From: Clostridia bacterium
GTDB lineage: Bacteria; Bacillota; Clostridia; Oscillospirales; Acutalibacteraceae
Reading direction: 5' to 3'
DNA length: 64,000 nt
NCBI GenBank assembly: GCA_017452785.1
Contig: JAFTLT010000009.1
Location: 62,001-126,000, forward strand
A model generated the notes under the pieces. That model ran no database searches. It saw nothing but the letters and a program-made list of their open reading frames with translations, and had not been told where the DNA came from. A program made the translations under genes and the position numbers. Below, piece after piece: positions 7,836 through 16,732 of this stretch (position 1 is the first letter of the stretch; the number at the start of each line of letters is the position of its first letter).

Positions 7836-7877
7836 ATTATCTGTATATACTATAATGTATAAAAAGGAGAAATGGAA

Positions 7878-10232
7878 ATGATTTTTACTAACAAAGATAA
7901 TGTTTTCCACCTGTCAACAAAAAAGACAAGCTATGTTTTCAGAGCACTTCCTACAGGTCAGCTTGAAGGAATGTACTACGGCAGAAAAATCAGAAACTCA
8001 GATAATCTCGAATATCTCTACGACAAGCACGCTGCAGGCTACAGCAATGCAACTCCTTACACTCAGAAAGATACTTCACTTTCACTTGACCATATCGCCC
8101 TCGAATACTCAGCCTACGGCAAAGGCGATTACAGACTGCCTGCTATGGAGCTTATGGCTGCCGACGGCAATTTCACAACAGATTTCACCTTTAAGAGTGC
8201 AGCTGTGACAAAGGTTAAGCCTCACCTCAAGGGTCTTCCCTCAAGCTACGGTGAAAGCGAAACACTTACTGTTGTGCTTGAAGATGCTGTTCTTGGTGCA
8301 GAGCTTCACCTTTTCTATACTGTTTATGAAGAAAGCAACGTTATTACAAGAAGTGCAAGACTTCATAACAAGAGCAAAAACGAAATCAAGATAAACTCTC
8401 TTATGAGTATGCAGCTCGACCTTCAGAGAGGCAAATATGTTATGCTCACCTTTGACGGTGCATGGGCAAGAGAAAGATATAAGCACGAGCATGAGCTCAC
8501 CTCAGGTGTCTGCTCTGTGGGCTCAATTTCAGGCTCAAGCTCAAACAGACATAACCCCTTCTTTGCAATCCGTGAAATCGACACAACAGAGCATAGCGGC
8601 AATTGCTATGGCTTCAATCTTGTGTACTCAGGCAACCATATTGCAAGAACTGAAATTTCTACCCACGGGCTTCTTCGCATACATAACGGCATAAATCCCT
8701 TTGAATTCCAGTGGAGTCTCGGTGAGGGTGAATATTTTGATGCTCCCGAAAGCGTAATGACCTTCAGTGATGAGGGTCTCAACGGCATGAGCCAGAATAT
8801 GCACGCATTCGTTAAGGAAAACATTGTAAGAGGCTATTGGAAGGATAAAGACAGACCTATTCTTGTCAACAACTGGGAAGCAACTACCTTCAGCTTCAAT
8901 GAAAAGAAAATCCTTGAGATTGCTGCCGCCACTAAAGAGCTCGGTGCCGAAATGTTCGTTCTTGACGATGGCTGGTTCGGTAAGCGTAACAACGATAAAG
9001 CAGGTCTTGGTGACTGGTACGTCAATATGAAAAAGCTTCCCAGCGGCATTAAGGGACTTTCAGAAAAGGTCAATGCTATGGGACTTAAATTCGGTCTTTG
9101 GGTTGAGCCGGAAATGGTTAACCCTGATTCAGACCTTTACAGAGCTCATCCCGATTGGGCAGTAACAACAGATGTTTATGAGCCTTCACAGGGCAGAAAT
9201 CAGCTTATACTTGACCTGACAAGACCTGAGGTGCGTGAATACATAATCAACACAATGACTGATGTTTTCCGCTACGGTAACGTCGAATATATCAAGTGGG
9301 ATAATAACCGTCATTTCTCTGATGTTTTCTCAAGACGCAAGGGAGCAAAAAGTGGTGAATTCTTCCACAGATACATTATGGGTCTTTATGAAATATGGGA
9401 GACTCTTACAGGCCGTTTCCCTGAAATCCTCTTTGAAGCATGCTCAAGCGGCGGTAACAGATTTGACCTTGCAACATTCTGCTATATGCCTCAGTGCTGG
9501 ACAAGTGATAACACAGACCCCCTTGACAGAATGCATATTCAGTCAGGCACATCCTATGGCTATCCTCAGTCTGTTATGACAATGCACGTTGCAGCAGCAA
9601 TCAGCTTCCCTGACTTCAGACCCAGCTCAATTGAGCAGAGATTCAATGTTTCTGCCTTCGGTCTTTTAGGTTATGAGCTTGACGTAACAAATCTCAGCCA
9701 GTTTGACAGAGCAGCAGTTAAAAAGCAGATTGAGTACTATAAAGCACACAGACGCCTTCTGCAGTACGGCGTATATTCCCGTATCGGCGACATCTTCAAG
9801 GACGACAGATGTATGTGGCAGATTACTGCTCCCGATAAGAGCGAAGCGATGTACGGCTACTTTGTCAACAGAATTACTCCCAACTGGGGTAACGATGTAA
9901 TTAAGTTCGTCTCACTTAATGAAGATTGGGACTATGACCTTAAAATCCGCACACAGCTTCTTTCACTCAAGAACTTCGGCGATATGATAAATGTTCCCAT
10001 GCCCAAAAAGCTCAATGTTGAAGACGGAAAATTCTTTGATTTCGTCTGCGAAATGGTGAAGCTCAAGAGTGAAAAGGAAGATTATATCATCGGCGGCGAT
10101 GCACTTATGCATTCAGGCTTCAAGCCCAAGCAGCCCTATAACTATTCCGGCTTTAAGTTCGGCGATTCAAGAATGATACTTGACAATGACTCAAGAATGT
10201 ATTATATTAGGAAAACTGCTGATACAGAATAA
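7878..10232 (+). CDS. GH36 family alpha-galactosidase (or alpha-N-acetylgalactosaminidase)
   Basis: A retaining glycosidase releasing terminal alpha-linked galactose or GalNAc. 784 residues, close to the family norm. Layout: N-terminal beta-sandwich (about 1-320), TIM barrel (about 320-650), C-terminal beta domain. Conserved motifs: VEPEMVNPDSDLYRAHPDW, EYIKWDNNRH with nucleophile Asp475, CSSGGNRFDL, and WTSDNTD with acid/base Asp544. No signal peptide, so it acts in the cytoplasm on imported oligosaccharides. The ATG at 7878 is preferred to the one at 7872 because it lies 8 nt after AAAGGAG rather than 2. Followed at once by a CBM9-like gene and a sugar kinase. Substrate specificity cannot be read from the sequence. 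Confidence 0.93.
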   Translation: MIFTNKDNVFHLSTKKTSYVFRALPTGQLEGMYYGRKIRNSDNLEYLYDKHAAGYSNATPYTQKDTSLSLDHIALEYSAYGKGDYRLPAMELMAADGNFTTDFTFKSAAVTKVKPHLKGLPSSYGESETLTVVLEDAVLGAELHLFYTVYEESNVITRSARLHNKSKNEIKINSLMSMQLDLQRGKYVMLTFDGAWARERYKHEHELTSGVCSVGSISGSSSNRHNPFFAIREIDTTEHSGNCYGFNLVYSGNHIARTEISTHGLLRIHNGINPFEFQWSLGEGEYFDAPESVMTFSDEGLNGMSQNMHAFVKENIVRGYWKDKDRPILVNNWEATTFSFNEKKILEIAAATKELGAEMFVLDDGWFGKRNNDKAGLGDWYVNMKKLPSGIKGLSEKVNAMGLKFGLWVEPEMVNPDSDLYRAHPDWAVTTDVYEPSQGRNQLILDLTRPEVREYIINTMTDVFRYGNVEYIKWDNNRHFSDVFSRRKGAKSGEFFHRYIMGLYEIWETLTGRFPEILFEACSSGGNRFDLATFCYMPQCWTSDNTDPLDRMHIQSGTSYGYPQSVMTMHVAAAISFPDFRPSSIEQRFNVSAFGLLGYELDVTNLSQFDRAAVKKQIEYYKAHRRLLQYGVYSRIGDIFKDDRCMWQITAPDKSEAMYGYFVNRITPNWGNDVIKFVSLNEDWDYDLKIRTQLLSLKNFGDMINVPMPKKLNVEDGKFFDFVCEMVKLKSEKEDYIIGGDALMHSGFKPKQPYNYSGFKFGDSRMILDNDSRMYYIRKTADTE

Positions 10233-10234
10233 TT

Positions 10235-10843
10235 ATGAAGCAATATAATACATATTCATTTTCCGATAAAATCAATTGGCAAGCAGTTCCCGAGGAAAAG
10301 CTGAGCTACTTTCTTTGGGACTCTGCCGCATCGTATAATGTATATTTTAAAATGTGCTTTCTTAAAGACAAGGGCATTTATCTTCGAATGCGCTGCAACG
10401 AAACACTTCTTCGCAGCAAGGGAAAGCATAGAGATGACAGAGTCTGGGAAGACAGCTGTATGGAAATGTTTATATGTCCCTTTGAAAAAAGAGGGGAGTA
10501 TGTAAATTTTGAAATCAACTGTGACGGAGTATACCTCAGCCAATTCGGCAGTGTACGTGAAAACAGACAGTTTATTAAGGAACTGACGAATATCGAAGCT
10601 CAGGTCAAAACTGAAAAAGGTTCTGATGGCTGGAGCCTTGAGCTTTTTGTGTCTTGTGAGCTAATAAGTGAAGTTTACGGCGAAAAATTTACAGCCGGCA
10701 AATGCAATATAAGAGGTAATTTTACCAAATGCGGAGATTTAACTGAGTATCCCCACTATGGCAGCTTCAGCGAACTTTCTACTTTAGAGTTGGGCTTCCA
10801 TAATCCGCAATGCTTTGCGTATATAAACATTGAGGAAAGGTAA
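10235..10843 (+). CDS. CBM9-like (DOMON-type) carbohydrate-binding protein, cytoplasmic
   Basis: 202 residues resembling the CBM9-like/DOMON family: W (FLWDSAASYNVYFKMCFLKDKGIYLRM), DDRVWEDSCMEMFICP (about 68-83), YVNFEINCDGVYL, then NIRGNFTKCGDLTEYPHYGSFS and a terminal FHNPQCFAYI. The family binds or recognises sugars; standalone intracellular versions are often next to glycosidases. No signal peptide or membrane segment. It starts 2 bp after the GH36 stop, so the two are translationally linked. Ligand unknown, and a direct role in the kinase step is not excluded. Confidence 0.75.
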   Translation: MKQYNTYSFSDKINWQAVPEEKLSYFLWDSAASYNVYFKMCFLKDKGIYLRMRCNETLLRSKGKHRDDRVWEDSCMEMFICPFEKRGEYVNFEINCDGVYLSQFGSVRENRQFIKELTNIEAQVKTEKGSDGWSLELFVSCELISEVYGEKFTAGKCNIRGNFTKCGDLTEYPHYGSFSELSTLELGFHNPQCFAYINIEER

Positions 10844-10847
10844 TATT

Positions 10848-11966
10848 ATGGCAGTAGATATAGATAACGAAATAGTAAAGGTGTGCAGACACTTTAACAT
10901 AAAAGGTGAGGCTGTGTCACAAAGCGTTTTCACCGACGGACACATCAACACCACTTTGCTCATCACTTTTGATGAAGACGGTGAAATAAAAAAATATCTC
11001 GTTCAGGGCATAAACACACATGTGTTTAAAAATCCTGAGGAGCTTATGGAAAATATTGTAAATGTCACAACATATTTAAGAAAGAAAATTGCTGAAAATG
11101 GTGGTAATCCCGAAAGAGAAACCCTCACATTTCTCAAAGCTGAAAACGGCAAATACTATTTTTATGTTGGTGATAAGTGTTGGCGAGCATATAATTTTAT
11201 TGATAACTCTCACACCTGCAATAAAATTGAAACCAAAGAGTATTTTGAAAATGCAGGCAGATCCTTTGGTAACTTCCAGAAGCACCTTACAGATTATCCC
11301 ATGCACACCCTTCACGAAACTATCAAGGATTTCCACCATACGCCCAAGCGTTTTGATAATCTTGAACAGGCAATTAAAACCAATGCTGCAGGCAGAGCCG
11401 ACAGCGTAAAGGCTGAAATTGAGTTTGCTATGGCAAGACGACCTCAGGCAGGCAGACTTCTCAAGCTCTATAAGGACGGTCTCATTCCCCTTCGTGTTAC
11501 GCATAACGATACAAAGCTCAACAATATTCTCTTTGATGATGAAACAAATGAGGGTATTTGCGTAATTGACCTTGATACCATTATGCCGGGCTTTTCATTA
11601 TACGATTTCGGTGATGCAATACGCTTTGGCGGCAACACCACAAGAGAAGACGATGACAACCTTGATAATGTTGATATTTCACTTGAGCTTTTCGAGAGCT
11701 ATGCAGAGGGCTTTTTATCAGCTTGTGCCAAGGCTCTTACTATGGCCGAGGTTGAAAATCTTGCCTTCTCTGCAATGCTTATGACTCTTGAATGCGGTAT
11801 ACGTTTCCTCACGGACTATCTTGACGGTGATGTTTATTTCAAGATAAAATACAGTGAGCATAACCTTGTCAGAGCAAGAAATCAGTTTAAGCTCGTTTAT
11901 GAAATTGAAAAGCATATGGATGAAATGAATGACATCGTAATGCGCATATATAAAAAGTATATTTAA
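10848..11966 (+). CDS. N-acetylhexosamine 1-kinase-like phosphotransferase (APH fold)
   Basis: 372 residues of the aminoglycoside phosphotransferase/choline kinase fold. The catalytic loop is HNDTKLNNILFD (from about 221), then the metal-binding VIDLDTIMPGFSLYDFGDAIRFG. This is the wording seen in N-acetylhexosamine 1-kinase (NahK), which makes GlcNAc-1-P or GalNAc-1-P from the free sugar in mucin-glycan salvage. The ATG at 10848 follows GAGGAAAGG; an upstream in-frame TTG at 10830 lies inside the previous gene and has no site. Last gene of the three-gene operon, followed by a terminator. Substrate inferred from family and context only. Confidence 0.72.
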   Translation: MAVDIDNEIVKVCRHFNIKGEAVSQSVFTDGHINTTLLITFDEDGEIKKYLVQGINTHVFKNPEELMENIVNVTTYLRKKIAENGGNPERETLTFLKAENGKYYFYVGDKCWRAYNFIDNSHTCNKIETKEYFENAGRSFGNFQKHLTDYPMHTLHETIKDFHHTPKRFDNLEQAIKTNAAGRADSVKAEIEFAMARRPQAGRLLKLYKDGLIPLRVTHNDTKLNNILFDDETNEGICVIDLDTIMPGFSLYDFGDAIRFGGNTTREDDDNLDNVDISLELFESYAEGFLSACAKALTMAEVENLAFSAMLMTLECGIRFLTDYLDGDVYFKIKYSEHNLVRARNQFKLVYEIEKHMDEMNDIVMRIYKKYI

Positions 11967-12003: not shown

Positions 12004-12097
12004 TTTTGAGATTTTATGAAAGATTTTTCATATTCTGCAGGATAAGGAGCTTGTTATATACAAAACACATAAAAATGTTTTAATTTGTTTACAACTA

Positions 12098-12126
12098 TTG
12101 ACAAATCACACAATTAAGTATATAAT
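12098..12126 (+). promoter_or_regulatory. Consensus promoter of a non-coding transcription unit
   Basis: Perfect TTGACA (12098-12103), a 17-bp spacer and perfect TATAAT (12121-12126). It is followed by about 560 bp with no convincing ORF. Expected start of transcription is about 12133. A perfect match suggests strong constitutive transcription. Confidence 0.88.
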
Positions 12127-12132
12127 AAAGAT

Positions 12133-12689
12133 GAAATTAAAGGAAAGGGGTGTTACCAATGCACTGCGTAGCTTAAGAGTATGGCAGTGATAGTGTCTGA
12201 ATTATGCAGGAATGTTATATTCCTCAAACCTCCTCTATGGCGAAGGTTATCGTCATAACAATTTAGATAATATCAGACTGATACTCGGTCGACAAAATAT
12301 ACCGCTGTTTTAAAACAGCAAAATCCGTATCCCTCTGAGTCTTCCCTTTATGCAGTTATACATTGAGCTGCTCTGAAGATAAAGAGTGTAAGTGAATTAT
12401 GATATGTTAAATCAGGGCATAGATTGCGTCAGCAGCTGTTTCGATTAGCTCCTGACATCCAAGCCAAAATTAAAAGTTGTAATTAAGCGGCAGTCATTAG
12501 GTAGCTTTTGTTACGGATACAATTGAATAAATTTTAATTTTAAAAATATTATAGAAAGATTATTGTTTTTGCTATAGTCTAATTTCTAAAAAACTACAGT
12601 TTACCATTTATATTCTAAAAAAATTTCAATTAAAAATCTTTTCACTTTAAATTAAATCCGGTGCCCGTTTCTCTGCACCGGATTTTTTT
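12133..12689 (+). ncRNA. Candidate large structured non-coding RNA (about 400-550 nt), family unrecognised
   Basis: Bounded by a consensus promoter and an intrinsic terminator, with no plausible gene. Complementary segments: CACTGC (12162-12167) with GCAGTG (12184-12189); AGGAAT (12208-12213) with ATTCCT (12219-12224); ATGGCGA (12237-12243) with TCGTCAT (12250-12256, one wobble); a longer-range helix GTCTGA+ATTAT (12195-12205) with ATAAT+TCAGAC (12267-12278) enclosing the last two hairpins as a multi-branch junction; GCTGTTTTAAAACAGC (12304-12319); GTCAGCAGCT (12428-12437) with AGCTCCTGAC (12447-12456, one mismatch). The structured part ends near 12540 and an AT-rich tail leads to the terminator. 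I find no hallmark of tmRNA, RNase P, SRP or 6S RNA. It could instead be a long leader, but a terminator and a second promoter separate it from the next gene. Confidence 0.6.
12654..12689 (+). terminator. Terminator of the non-coding unit
   Basis: AAATCCGGTGC (12654-12664) and GCACCGGATTT (12675-12685) form a perfect 11-bp stem with a 10-nt loop and a run of seven T. It separates the non-coding unit from the SDR-LicD gene, whose own promoter starts at 12722. Confidence 0.93.
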
Positions 12690-12721
12690 CGTTTGTCATT
12701 ATATTACTGATAGTCTTTTCA

Positions 12722-12750
12722 TTGACAAATATGTGCCGAGGTAGTATAAT
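12722..12750 (+). promoter_or_regulatory. Promoter of the SDR-LicD fusion gene
   Basis: Perfect TTGACA (12722-12727), 17-bp spacer, perfect TATAAT (12745-12750). The TTG of the -35 box opens a longer in-frame ORF, which is why an upstream start at 12722 should be rejected in favour of the ATG at 12788. Confidence 0.88.
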
Positions 12751-12787: not shown

Positions 12788-15700
12788 ATGAATCAGTTTT
12801 TTTATGATGAAATTAAATGTAGTGTTACTTCGCTGAAAAAGGCGGGGATTAATCCTGCACTTTATAAAGATGATGAAATAATAATTGTTGCAGATGAACA
12901 CTCACTCGGTGCTTATCTTGCAGGTTTTTTCAGCGTTGGAGTCAAAAGCAAAGACTGTGCTGTAAGTGTTGTAACTGAGGGTAAACTCAGAAACGAGGCT
13001 ATCTATAACGAATTTAAAAATGATAAGGACTTGTCTCTCAGTTTTTATAACAGTCTTTCTGATTACAAAGGCGGCAGAGCACAGGGCAAAAAAAGTCACG
13101 TTTATTATATAGCTAACCTTCAGCTTAAAGACTATGACAGTGAAGACTTCGTAAAGGCTAAAAAAGAAAATCTTATTGAGTGGCTGCAGTTCAGCTGCGA
13201 TAGCTCATCTTCATTTGTTTTCATTCCTGTTTTTAACTTTTCAAAGCCCTTTGAAGAGGGTATTGTCAGTGTTTCTGAAAGAGAAATTGAGGCTGTTGCA
13301 GGGGCAGATGCTGACTTTAGCCGTGGCAGACTTCTTATGGAAATGGAAGAGCTTTGCCGCAGATATTTCCTCCAAAATAATATACCTATGAATGTTGTTC
13401 GCTTTGACAATATTTTCGGTCCGATGGTTGAGGATACAACAAAGCTAGGCATAGATAAAATTATTGATGAGCTGGCTGAAAGCAACAAGGTTCTCTTTAA
13501 AAAGTCAGACAGCATCACACATTACACCGGCTGCTATATCCGTGAGGCTATCACTGCAGTTTACACCGTCAGTGTCGTAGGCAAAAACGGCAACATTTAT
13601 AACGCAGCAAACTACAATTTCACTATTCACGATGTTAAGGACGCACTTTACACTCATTTTGCCTCAAAGAACCCTGCCGCCGATTTTGACGATGACCTGA
13701 TGAACGGCTGGGTAACACAGAAAAACTATGAGTGTCTTGCCAACCTTAAGATACAGTCCCTTGGCTGGACAGAAGAAACGCCTTTTGGTGAGGCAATTTA
13801 CAGAACTGCTCTTATTAAGGTTGAGCAGGAATATAAGGGCGACTTTTATGTTGACATTTATCAGGGCAAGATAGAGCGTATCAAACGCATTGAAATGGAC
13901 ATCATGCGTGAAATCGACCGCATCTGCCGTGAAAATGACATAAATTATTTCCTTGTTGGCGGTTCGCTTCTTGGTGCAATCAGACATAAGGGCTTTATCC
14001 CTTGGGATGACGATATCGATATCGGTATGCTCCGTGAGGATTTTGAAAAGTTCCGACATCTTTGTCCCAAGGTGCTTTCTTCGCATCTTAGCTATCAGTC
14101 ATATACAGATGAACCCACATCACACTATATTTTTGATAAGGTTCGTCTCAAGGATACCTATTTCAGCACTAAGTTTTCAAACAGATTTATTGATATTGAA
14201 AATGGTATTTTTATTGACATTCTCGTTTACGATAAAACAGCTAATTCCAATTTCTTCCAGAAACTTCATATAAATTCAATCCGCTTCTTCCGCCGTCTTA
14301 TCAATATACGCTGGGTCGGCAAGGCAAGACGAGGCATACATTACACCGCCTCAAAGATTATGCTGCCTATAATGAAGAAGGTGCCTTTCCTGACTTATCA
14401 CTACTTCTTTGAAAAGGCACTGCAGATGTTCGATTTCAAAAAGAACAGCAAATATCTTATTGACGGTGTTGGACAGAACCTTGAAAAAGGTCCCTTCCCA
14501 ATGGAGTGGTTTGAGGAGCTTATTGATGTTCCTTATGAGGATATGGTCTTTAAGGCGCCTAAGGCATATGATGCATATCTCAGACATTGGTACGGAAACA
14601 GATATATGGAGCTGCTGCCTTTGTCTTCGAGAAACTCAGGTCATGCCCTTGCAAGACTTGACTTAGGTAAATATCTCTATAAAGACACTGAAAATATGCC
14701 TGTTCGTGAGGTTGACCTCAACGGTGAGCTCTTTGAAAAGCTGGTTTATGAAAACGCTGACGAAGGCATGGACGAAAACTTCCTTGATGAAATATCACTT
14801 ATTGATAAGGAAATCCTCATGGGTAATATGAAGCACGGTGCTCTCAATAAGTGCGAAATCAACATCATAGGCGACGAGCATAGCCTTGCTGCATATCTTG
14901 CAGGTTATTATATGTTCCGTAATAAAGCTCAGGGTGAGGGTAGTGTAAATGTAATACTTGAAGGCAGATGCCGCAACAAAGAGCTTTATGACCAGATAAG
15001 CGAAGAATTTGACGGTAATGCACTGTTTAATATTTATGATAGCATAGACAGCTATTACAGCATGAGCAGAGCAAATGCCAAAAAGGTTTATTTCTATCTT
15101 GCAAATATTCAGCTTCCTGAATATGCTGATGATGAATTTGTCAGAGAAAAGAAAAAGAATTTACGCAAGTGGCTCGCTCTTGCAAGAAACTCAAACGGTA
15201 CCTTCGTCTTTATTCCCATTTTCAATTTCAATAAGCCCTTTGACGGTGGCGTTGCAGCCATATCAGAGCGTGAGGTTGAGTCTCTTGTGCTTTATGAAAA
15301 GGATTTCCGTCAGGGCAGAATATTGCTTGAGCTTGAGGATGTATGCAGAAAATCCTTCTCATACAGAAAAAATACTCTCACTGTTGTTCGCTTTGACAAT
15401 ATTTTCGGACCTTTTGTTCAGGATACATCAAAGCTCGGCATCGGCAGGGTACTCAAAGAGCTCAAAGAAAACAACTCAATCACTTTCTTTACAAGTGACA
15501 GCATAGTGAACTACTCAGCCTGCTATATTCGTCAGGCAGTTACTGCAGTGCACTGTGCAGCTCTCAAGGGCAGAACGGGTAACATCTATAACGCTTCAAA
15601 TTATAATTTCACGCTCCACGATATAAAAACACTTCTTTATGAGGCATTTGCCGAGAGAAACCCGGCTGTGAAGTTTGTTAATAACACAGAGACTATGCCT

Positions 15701-16732
15701 CAGGAAAAGCTCTATGAGCGCCTTGGCAACCTTAAGCTCAGGGATATAGGTTGGACTGAGATAACACCTCTTGACGAGGCTCTTGCAAGAACCGTTTATG
15801 CTGAGCTTGAGGCAAGCGGAGACGATAAAATATCACAGACTCTTTATCAGGGCAAGCTCAATAAAATCCGTCAGCTTCAGCTTGAAATTATTGCAGATGT
15901 TGACCGTATATGCCGTAACAACAATATTAAATACTTCCTTGTTGGCGGCTCACTGTTAGGTGCAGTGAAATACGGCGGTTATATTCCTTGGGAGGATACA
16001 ATTGACATCGGCATGTTCCGTGAGGATTATGAGAAGTTTAAGGCAATATGCCCGAAGGAGCTTTCAGATAAGCTTAAATATCAGAGCTATGAAAAAGGCT
16101 CAGCCTCTCATTTTGTACACGATAAAATCCGTCTCAATGACACAGGCTTTTTCACCGCCGTTTCTGAAAATCATAAGCTTGTTGACCTCGGTCTGTTTAT
16201 AAATGTTTATGTTTATGACAAAACAGCAGGCACCACAATCGGCAGACAGATTCACTCATTCGCTGTGCAGAACCTGAGAAGACTCATTAATCTTCGCTGG
16301 CAGAATAGGGCTGTTCCCGGTCCTCATTACAGACTTATGAAGCTCGCACTTCCCTTTGTACGCATGTTACCCTTTAATCTTTATCATTCAATGCTTGAGC
16401 ACGTACTCAAGCGTTACAGCAAAAAGGATAACTGCGTCTTCCTTATTGACGGTGAGGGATTAAGTCTTCATAAGGGTGCATTCCCTGCAAAGTGGTTCTA
16501 TAATCTTGCAGAAATGGAATTTGAGGGAGTTAAACTTCCCGTGCCTGAGTATTATGACGATTATCTCAAGCACTTCTACGGTGAAAACTATATGAAGACT
16601 ATTCCGGAAAGTAAGCGACACAGCGGCAGAAAGATTCTCAGAATTGACCTTGGTAAATATCTCTATGATAAAACAGCCAACGCTCAGGCACACAAAAAGA
16701 ATGCCAAGGGCGAACTCTATGAGAAATTATGA
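12788..16732 (+). CDS. Tandemly duplicated SDR(epimerase-like)-LicD fusion protein
   Basis: 1314 residues in two homologous halves, each an extended-SDR/epimerase-like domain (about 1-345 and 690-1005) followed by a LicD-type nucleotidyltransferase-fold domain (about 365-640 and 1030-1300). LicD proteins attach phosphocholine or related groups to surface glycans. LicD-1 has GGSLLGA (391-397) and PWDDDIDIG, with the metal-binding pair Asp409/Asp411. In LicD-2 the segment reads PWEDTIDIG, so the first Asp is Thr1071. In both SDR domains the YxxxK motif is replaced by FSRGR (Phe177, Arg181) and FRQGR (Phe840, Arg844), and no GxxGxxG is seen, so they are probably not dehydrogenases. No signal or membrane segment. 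Single-gene unit with its own promoter; no glycan cluster next to it. Confidence 0.85.
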   Translation: MNQFFYDEIKCSVTSLKKAGINPALYKDDEIIIVADEHSLGAYLAGFFSVGVKSKDCAVSVVTEGKLRNEAIYNEFKNDKDLSLSFYNSLSDYKGGRAQGKKSHVYYIANLQLKDYDSEDFVKAKKENLIEWLQFSCDSSSSFVFIPVFNFSKPFEEGIVSVSEREIEAVAGADADFSRGRLLMEMEELCRRYFLQNNIPMNVVRFDNIFGPMVEDTTKLGIDKIIDELAESNKVLFKKSDSITHYTGCYIREAITAVYTVSVVGKNGNIYNAANYNFTIHDVKDALYTHFASKNPAADFDDDLMNGWVTQKNYECLANLKIQSLGWTEETPFGEAIYRTALIKVEQEYKGDFYVDIYQGKIERIKRIEMDIMREIDRICRENDINYFLVGGSLLGAIRHKGFIPWDDDIDIGMLREDFEKFRHLCPKVLSSHLSYQSYTDEPTSHYIFDKVRLKDTYFSTKFSNRFIDIENGIFIDILVYDKTANSNFFQKLHINSIRFFRRLINIRWVGKARRGIHYTASKIMLPIMKKVPFLTYHYFFEKALQMFDFKKNSKYLIDGVGQNLEKGPFPMEWFEELIDVPYEDMVFKAPKAYDAYLRHWYGNRYMELLPLSSRNSGHALARLDLGKYLYKDTENMPVREVDLNGELFEKLVYENADEGMDENFLDEISLIDKEILMGNMKHGALNKCEINIIGDEHSLAAYLAGYYMFRNKAQGEGSVNVILEGRCRNKELYDQISEEFDGNALFNIYDSIDSYYSMSRANAKKVYFYLANIQLPEYADDEFVREKKKNLRKWLALARNSNGTFVFIPIFNFNKPFDGGVAAISEREVESLVLYEKDFRQGRILLELEDVCRKSFSYRKNTLTVVRFDNIFGPFVQDTSKLGIGRVLKELKENNSITFFTSDSIVNYSACYIRQAVTAVHCAALKGRTGNIYNASNYNFTLHDIKTLLYEAFAERNPAVKFVNNTETMPQEKLYERLGNLKLRDIGWTEITPLDEALARTVYAELEASGDDKISQTLYQGKLNKIRQLQLEIIADVDRICRNNNIKYFLVGGSLLGAVKYGGYIPWEDTIDIGMFREDYEKFKAICPKELSDKLKYQSYEKGSASHFVHDKIRLNDTGFFTAVSENHKLVDLGLFINVYVYDKTAGTTIGRQIHSFAVQNLRRLINLRWQNRAVPGPHYRLMKLALPFVRMLPFNLYHSMLEHVLKRYSKKDNCVFLIDGEGLSLHKGAFPAKWFYNLAEMEFEGVKLPVPEYYDDYLKHFYGENYMKTIPESKRHSGRKILRIDLGKYLYDKTANAQAHKKNAKGELYEKL

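Follow-up and report, generated by a model that had tools for sequence, protein, structure and literature searches.

A putative stand-alone structured RNA gene headed by a five-codon minigene, known so far from a single genus of uncultured bacteria, mostly of the ruminant gut

The window, by which we mean the whole stretch of 64,000 nt analysed here, contains on its forward strand a non-coding region delimited by a promoter, TTGACA-17-TATAAT (12098–12126, +; 12 of 12 matches to the consensus), and an intrinsic terminator (12654–12690, +) consisting of an 11-bp stem (12654–12664 / 12675–12685, 100 % complementary) and a T run. The initial annotation had called both signals perfect, as indeed they are, even though the terminator was missed by a simple scan because its loop of 10 exceeds the limit of 8 set in that scan. 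Transcription would start at ca. 12133, giving a transcript of ca. 560 nt with a well-conserved core of ca. 400 nt, which agrees with the 400–550 nt anticipated for the RNA. Before this region (7872–11966, +) there are genes of sugar utilisation, encoding a GH36 alpha-galactosidase-like protein (Melibiase), a CBM9_2 protein and an APH-type kinase, all named from Pfam, and after it lies a LicD-type gene (12788–16732; Pfam LicD), which has a perfect promoter of its own (12722–12750). The 1314 aa product of the latter includes two LicD stretches and similarity to Epimerase, and reads as an internal duplication. The sole Rfam match at cut-off in the window is an L10 leader (RF00557; 2621–2775, +; 62.1 bits).

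The blastn comparison proposed in the initial annotation, run with the region against 60 relatives, identified a full-length match of 85 % in genome G008; all other matches, including one on contig 22 of G000, the genome of the window itself, were confined to the first 69–79 bases, spanning the promoter through AAAGGGGTGTTACCAATG and the bases following it. A model of this 5′ element, designated R1, recovered 18 strong copies (E 1.3e-13 or better) from 15 of the 35 genomes of the genus, with two copies each in G000, G008 and G003 and one in each of the other 12; the next match had an E of 0.001, and weak matches (E 0.001 to 0.05) were taken as chance matches to promoters. The second copy of the window's own genome (L031:3194-3814) belongs to the A group and has a different body. 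R1 gave nothing outside the genus under the stricter filters used for the family (300 genomes, 1 of 135 genera) and the order (394 genomes, 1 of 169 genera), the single positive genus being in both cases that of the window. Likewise, a pattern scan of 84,980 species, each represented by one genome, returned 15 stretches, all 15 of which appear to lie on copy-bearing contigs of the same genus, with an exact pattern that can overlook diverged relatives and misses the copy in G017. For 12 of these 15 stretches, the stated source is the rectum or cecum of a ruminant (goat, sheep, roe deer, yak or water buffalo). The known range of the RNA family is so far a single genus of uncultured bacteria, mostly of the ruminant gut. 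All copies but that of G007, which is cut by a contig end, are full length; counted from the -10 box through the terminator, they span 502–605 nt. Each of the 17 ends in a stem and T run, and the six bases of the -10 box are invariant in the 17 aligned copies.

The predicted fold of 12134–12690 has an energy of -138.7 kcal/mol, which was not reached by any of 100 shuffled sequences (mean -110.2, sd 6.2; z -4.63). With the last 45 nt removed, z was -3.2 for the window and ranged from -2.7 to -8.7 for all 17 full-length copies, each folding below its shuffles. Local elements of the predicted fold include a hairpin GGAAU/AUUCC (12209–12223, +) and another around AUGGCG/CGUCAU (12237–12258, +), in which a G-U pair is replaced by A-U in the G008 relative. 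The palindrome pointed out initially, GCTGTTTTAAAACAGC at 12304–12319, is present and coincides with the first of two hairpins rewritten between these sequences (GCUGUUUUAAAACAGC, 12304–12319, +; 9 of 16 positions identical to the relative, two two-sided changes); the second is a hairpin region at 12336–12381 (+), with 21 of 44 positions identical and four two-sided changes in the common structure.

Outside these hairpins, the core is identical between the window and G008 at 319 of 334 positions (165/172, 15/15 and 139/147), against 352/379, 354/379 and 234/379 for codon positions 1, 2 and 3 of the neighbouring kinase gene. At the sequence level, the RNA core is therefore no less conserved than constrained codon positions, with two hairpins rewritten, and more so than the third codon positions next door; the neutral drift that the initial annotation considered as the opposite outcome was not seen between these two copies. 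The A/T-rich tail preceding the terminator (12531–12653, +) is poorly conserved (89/117, ca. 76 %, against 95 % for the core). In a common structure for the window and G008, nine pairs show two-sided changes (six in the rewritten hairpins and three in the tail), ten one-sided changes and none is broken, an absence partly built in because this structure was computed from both sequences. When the structure was derived from one sequence alone, the counts for this pair were 7 two-sided, 8 one-sided and 11 broken, whereas the null gave on average 2.0 two-sided changes and 17.8 broken pairs, each observed value being reached by 1 of 500 shuffles. Broken pairs were fewer than in the null in all eight copy pairs that we chose, which share members and are not independent (0 to 10 of 500 shuffles as low), and their two-sided changes were reached by 0 to 22 of 500 shuffles. 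As computed, the core is under strong purifying selection, with its stems kept by two-sided changes.

The initial annotation saw no plausible gene between promoter and terminator, which holds in that there is no ORF longer than 33 aa, but overlooked a conserved five-codon minigene at the 5′ end. A Shine-Dalgarno sequence, AAGGAAAGGGGTG (12140–12152, +), which would form a duplex of -15.2 kcal/mol with the 16S tail, is followed by ATG CAC TGC GTA GCT TAA (12159–12176, +), that is, five sense codons (MHCVA) and a TAA stop. The Shine-Dalgarno sequence, the ATG, four further codons and the TAA occur in 18 of 18 copies, with duplex energies from -12.7 to -15.3 kcal/mol, as compared with a mean of -3.3 for 20-mers of the body; the 16S tail sequence used for these duplexes is the one we presume for these bacteria. 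No other comparable start was detected in the body of 11 copies, and the other seven have one weaker candidate each, in differing places. The peptides are MYCLM (10 copies), MYCLV (5), MHCVA (2, the window and G008) and MYRLV (1); in the window type, four of the five codons are altered, one of them silently, with ATG and TAA kept in register. The minigene is probably translated. Because the frame is kept while the peptide varies, the act of translation, and not the peptide, would be what matters, and the pattern is as expected if initiation and termination are important and the product is not.

The Shine-Dalgarno sequence is predicted to be ca. 80 % paired in both window-type copies and in that of G015, and not in most others. 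In the finished window RNA the ribosome site is predicted to be 82 % paired, with a partner near 12650. This predicted burial would argue against easy loading of ribosomes on the finished RNA in these three copies, and could equally mean that in the window the minigene is translated only during transcription. That the 3′ end hides the ribosome site was discarded as a trait of the family, such pairing being predicted only in both window-type copies, while G015 uses a different site. It might alternatively be that the 5′ site serves to recruit 30S subunits or ribosomes, as a tether or a sink, the minigene just ending translation fast. Consistent with this, conservation of the RNA is highest in the 5′ cassette, with its near-full fit to the 16S tail, and another large RNA, GOLLD, is reported to bind ribosomes in pull-downs (PMC12286853). 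Nevertheless, an initiation site explains by itself the fit to the 16S tail, and we hold this alternative to be rather unlikely.

In small RNAs of dual function, such as SgrS and RNAIII, a regulatory RNA likewise contains an ORF with its ribosome site; the peptides made from them are conserved and exceed in length the five residues encoded here, which vary between copies. Other bacterial minigenes have the same arrangement of ribosome site, ATG, few codons and stop, as in an example from the axe-txe operon (PMC8708949), whereas the minigene described here heads a large structured RNA and has no gene after it.

Two long-range helices, H2 and H4, are proposed for the body. The 5′ strand of H2 (CAGUGAUA, 12185–12192, +) starts 9 nt past the minigene stop and would pair, across a 2-nt bulge, with 12271–12280 (+; UAUCagACUG), which contains a UAUCAGA-type motif conserved in the non-C groups. 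In most copies, GAUUUGAUAA right after the minigene pairs with UUAUCAGAUC-type motifs ca. 80–200 nt on; the C group has ACAGUUUGAUAA and UUAUCGGAUUGU as the two strands. Across 17 of the 18 copies (without G007), H2 alone has 88.1 % of its cells paired; together with the 5′ hairpin this rises to 90.1 %, with a covariation score of 0.152 versus 0.120 in shuffles, neither value being reached in 500 shuffles. The two-sided cells of this combination (5) were reached by 6 of 500 shuffles, and its pairs with two-sided changes (2; 225 of 500) and pair types (12; 334 of 500) were ordinary. Ensemble predictions place the 5′ strand of H2 in pairs far downstream with a mean probability of 0.34–0.99 in 17 copies, above 0.7 in 14 of them; the value for the window is 0.59, with an ambiguous register, and in a competing form the sequence from 12194 onward takes up this 3′ strand. 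A 5′ hairpin covering the minigene was rejected for lack of support in the ensemble (predicted probability of 0.40 or less in 16 of 17 copies).

H4 would be formed in the window by GUAUCC (12327–12332, +) and GGAUAC (12515–12520, +), the counterparts of the GUAUCUC that in other copies pairs with GAGAUAC 120–230 nt on, with an alternative register of UCCGUA (12324–12329) and UACGGA (12512–12517). Variants include UAUCCC/GGGAUA, GUAUCCC/GGGAUAC and AAGUAUCUC/GAGAUACUU. The count covers 14 of 18 copies, without G000b and G008b, whose strands were chosen by complementarity, G018, where the 3′ strand was not found, and the truncated G007. H4 has 83.2 % of its cells paired, compared with 77.4 % in shuffles (0 of 500 reach the observed value) and 16.5–55.8 % in slid versions; its covariation score is 0.179 versus 0.114 (0 of 500) and its two-sided cells are 7 versus 2.9 (3 of 500), the number of pairs with two-sided changes (3; 127 of 500) and of pair types (7; 197 of 500) being again ordinary. 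The counts for H2 and H4 come from strands picked by hand through conserved motifs, with complementarity in view, which biases them toward structure, and kinship among the copies can inflate both pairing and covariation. In a matrix of 16 of the 18 copies, H4 strands form duplexes averaging -11.9 kcal/mol with their own partners and -7.9 across groups; the window's own duplex (-9.4) is weaker than those of its 5′ strand with the 3′ strands of some other copies (to -14.4).

One body from each of the A and B groups and that of the window were used as blastn queries: the A-group body matched only the copy of G008 and 35 bases in G018; the B-group body matched G032, parts of G002 and G003 and, briefly, another site in its own genome; and the window body was found, among the 60 relatives, only in G008. 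Since the bodies are barely linked by blastn, with two of them reaching near kin and short stretches only, we retained the alternative that the promoter, the minigene and the first helix are all that is shared, the bodies being different, unrelated structured RNAs. Some anchors are indeed missing in some groups, as the window type lacks the recurring loops described below and G018 a detectable 3′ strand of H4. However, the H2 partner, H4 and GAAGAAAA-type runs follow one another in a constant order from group to group, and lengths are similar, so we consider unrelated bodies improbable. As computed, H2 and H4 recur across groups whose bodies blastn barely links, and the body of a single RNA family seems to evolve fast, its stems being kept while their sequence is rewritten.

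The 17 copies examined are situated in about five unrelated neighbourhoods, where protein names other than those from Pfam are our reading of the sequences: the kinase/LicD neighbourhood (window and G008), a TetR-like cluster (two copies), a region with an FAD-dependent oxidoreductase (nine, G002 being counted by shared neighbours), a phosphosugar-mutase region (four) and, for G025, a neighbourhood of its own. An ORF of the same cluster as the LicD-type gene also follows the RNA in G008. The gene directly downstream is on the opposite strand in at least 5 of the 17 copies. A short ORF with a strong ribosome site heading a structured, terminator-ended RNA is the classic layout of a leader or attenuator, in which the minigene would be a leader peptide, and the downstream gene of the window is on the same strand. 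Yet this gene has its own perfect promoter, as already argued in the initial annotation against a leader, the downstream genes vary by group or face the other way, and the peptide is not conserved; no constant same-strand downstream gene without a promoter of its own was found, and a leader is hardly credible. The changing neighbourhoods and opposite-strand downstream genes indicate instead that promoter, RNA and terminator move as one unit. The multi-helix, stand-alone RNA proposed from the start is borne out by low fold energies in 17 of 17 copies, pair-preserving changes, a level of conservation that surpasses the neutral reference, the possession of a promoter and a terminator, and neighbours that differ between copies, and 12133–12690 is almost certainly a stand-alone structured RNA gene.

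Few large structured RNAs are known from bacteria, and for several of them the role is still to be established. A covariance-model search of Rfam 15, advised in the initial annotation, identified no family at gathering scores for the RNA in the window or across 16 copy loci; at loose E-values there were 6 and 6 matches, all below gathering and to other families. The caution voiced there against assigning the RNA to OLE, ROOL or GOLLD was thus justified. As for tmRNA, whose features it had also found lacking, ARAGORN found none in the window and Rfam gave no tmRNA match even at loose thresholds. A CsrB-type sponge was also discarded, because there is no CsrA in the 35 genomes (the control was positive in three) and no general surplus of GGA motifs (the window has 3, its shuffles 4.1 on average; at most 12 against 8.0, in G017).

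ROOL (RF03087), GOLLD and OLE resemble the RNA described here in having several hundred nt, many stems, long-range pairs and no protein; a hallmark of ROOL and GOLLD is a multimeric cage built of RNA only. A known class too diverged for its model, such as ROOL, might be suspected given the size of the copies (502–605 nt versus 574 positions in the ROOL model) and their ruminant-gut hosts. ROOL has been described in phages and prophages, where it frequently lies close to tRNA islands (PMC12286853), whereas the RNA studied here, similar in size, is chromosomal with no tRNAs nearby: none occurs in the 64-kb window or near the 18 copies. ROOL matches were absent from the copies even at E up to 5–10 and from the 35 genomes with the ROOL model, which was silent in control genomes too, and the RNA family was not found in phage and viral collections, all of which makes such a class very improbable. 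The searches for a mobile or viral origin gave no viral pattern and no plasmid; the phage search gave 22 records, and in the 20 listed the match to a 113-base query never goes beyond its first 52 %, a part that holds the promoter and extends no further than the edge of the ribosome site. With no full element among the phage records listed and none in viral or plasmid collections, this origin was rejected. The RNA described here has a fixed minigene cassette, whereas a start codon is nowhere mentioned in the ROOL/GOLLD paper (PMC12286853). The raiA motif or ModT RNA (RF03072) is described (PMC11706538) as likewise a stand-alone structured RNA of Clostridia-type bacteria, but its model has 209 positions versus 502–605 nt; it did not appear in the Rfam searches or in the 35 genomes, where its control was silent as well. 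The literature searched, which subscription papers and most preprints lay outside, held no description of this family, which adds to the large structured bacterial RNAs one with a minigene cassette.

We consider, with a probability of about one half, that the best explanation is a genus-restricted large structured RNA in which ribosomes on the minigene gate folding and the body acts in trans. Ribosomes would start and finish translation of the minigene during synthesis of the RNA, and a ribosome ending at 12174–12176 would abut the proposed 5′ strand of H2, which starts at 12185, 9 nt downstream. From this spacing we propose that folding of H2, and subsequently of the domain that H4 closes, is controlled by ribosome traffic: traffic could hold H2 open, and once it stops the RNA would fold, the folded body being the active product that acts in trans on a partner. 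That translation gates folding is a tentative suggestion. It is doubtful, although conceivable, that the RNA exemplifies a class with a ribosome-gated fold, in which an invariant promoter-minigene cassette would let each transcript sense initiation and termination, the core would close and become active only when ribosomes are scarce or slow, and the body would evolve fast, as if its partner kept changing. The fixed five-codon minigene suggests a direct link to the ribosome, and, if translation does gate the fold, the RNA would clearly exemplify a stand-alone transcript reading ribosome traffic, unlike a leader controlling the next gene. Copies at several chromosomal places, with rewritten yet paired stems, amount to a natural mutagenesis series.

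Upstream of the -35 box, the window contains a block (12055–12097, +), with TTTGTTTACAACTATT at 12084–12099, in a form common to the copies in an alignment of the 18 promoters. From about -80 to -36, these share the conserved blocks TGTGCA, A(C/T)AAAAT and TGTTNAAAACTATTGAC, perhaps an UP element or a regulator site. A strict version of this upstream box, a pattern that the window's own promoter copy fails, was scanned in three genomes and occurred only at the RNA promoters in G000 and G015, being absent in G033. In many relatives (L083, L084, L087, L089, L091–L094) the kinase is followed by a gene read by eye as hpf, which we take to be a ribosome hibernation factor; among the 17 loci inspected after the kinase, two of them (L086 and L098) without a downstream flank owing to contig ends, G000 and G008 have the RNA and the LicD gene in the place of the hpf-like gene. 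A suspicion, also by eye, that the upstream box was common to hpf promoters was dropped, as the strict pattern did not occur elsewhere in the three genomes. Finally, although the window type lacks them, the terminal loops GCAGA(G/A)GA and GUGU(A/G)NAGAAA recur, in hairpins with differing stems, in the copies G000b, G008b, G014, G033, G011, G017, G025, G005, G006, G032 and G015, and are possible protein or kissing sites.
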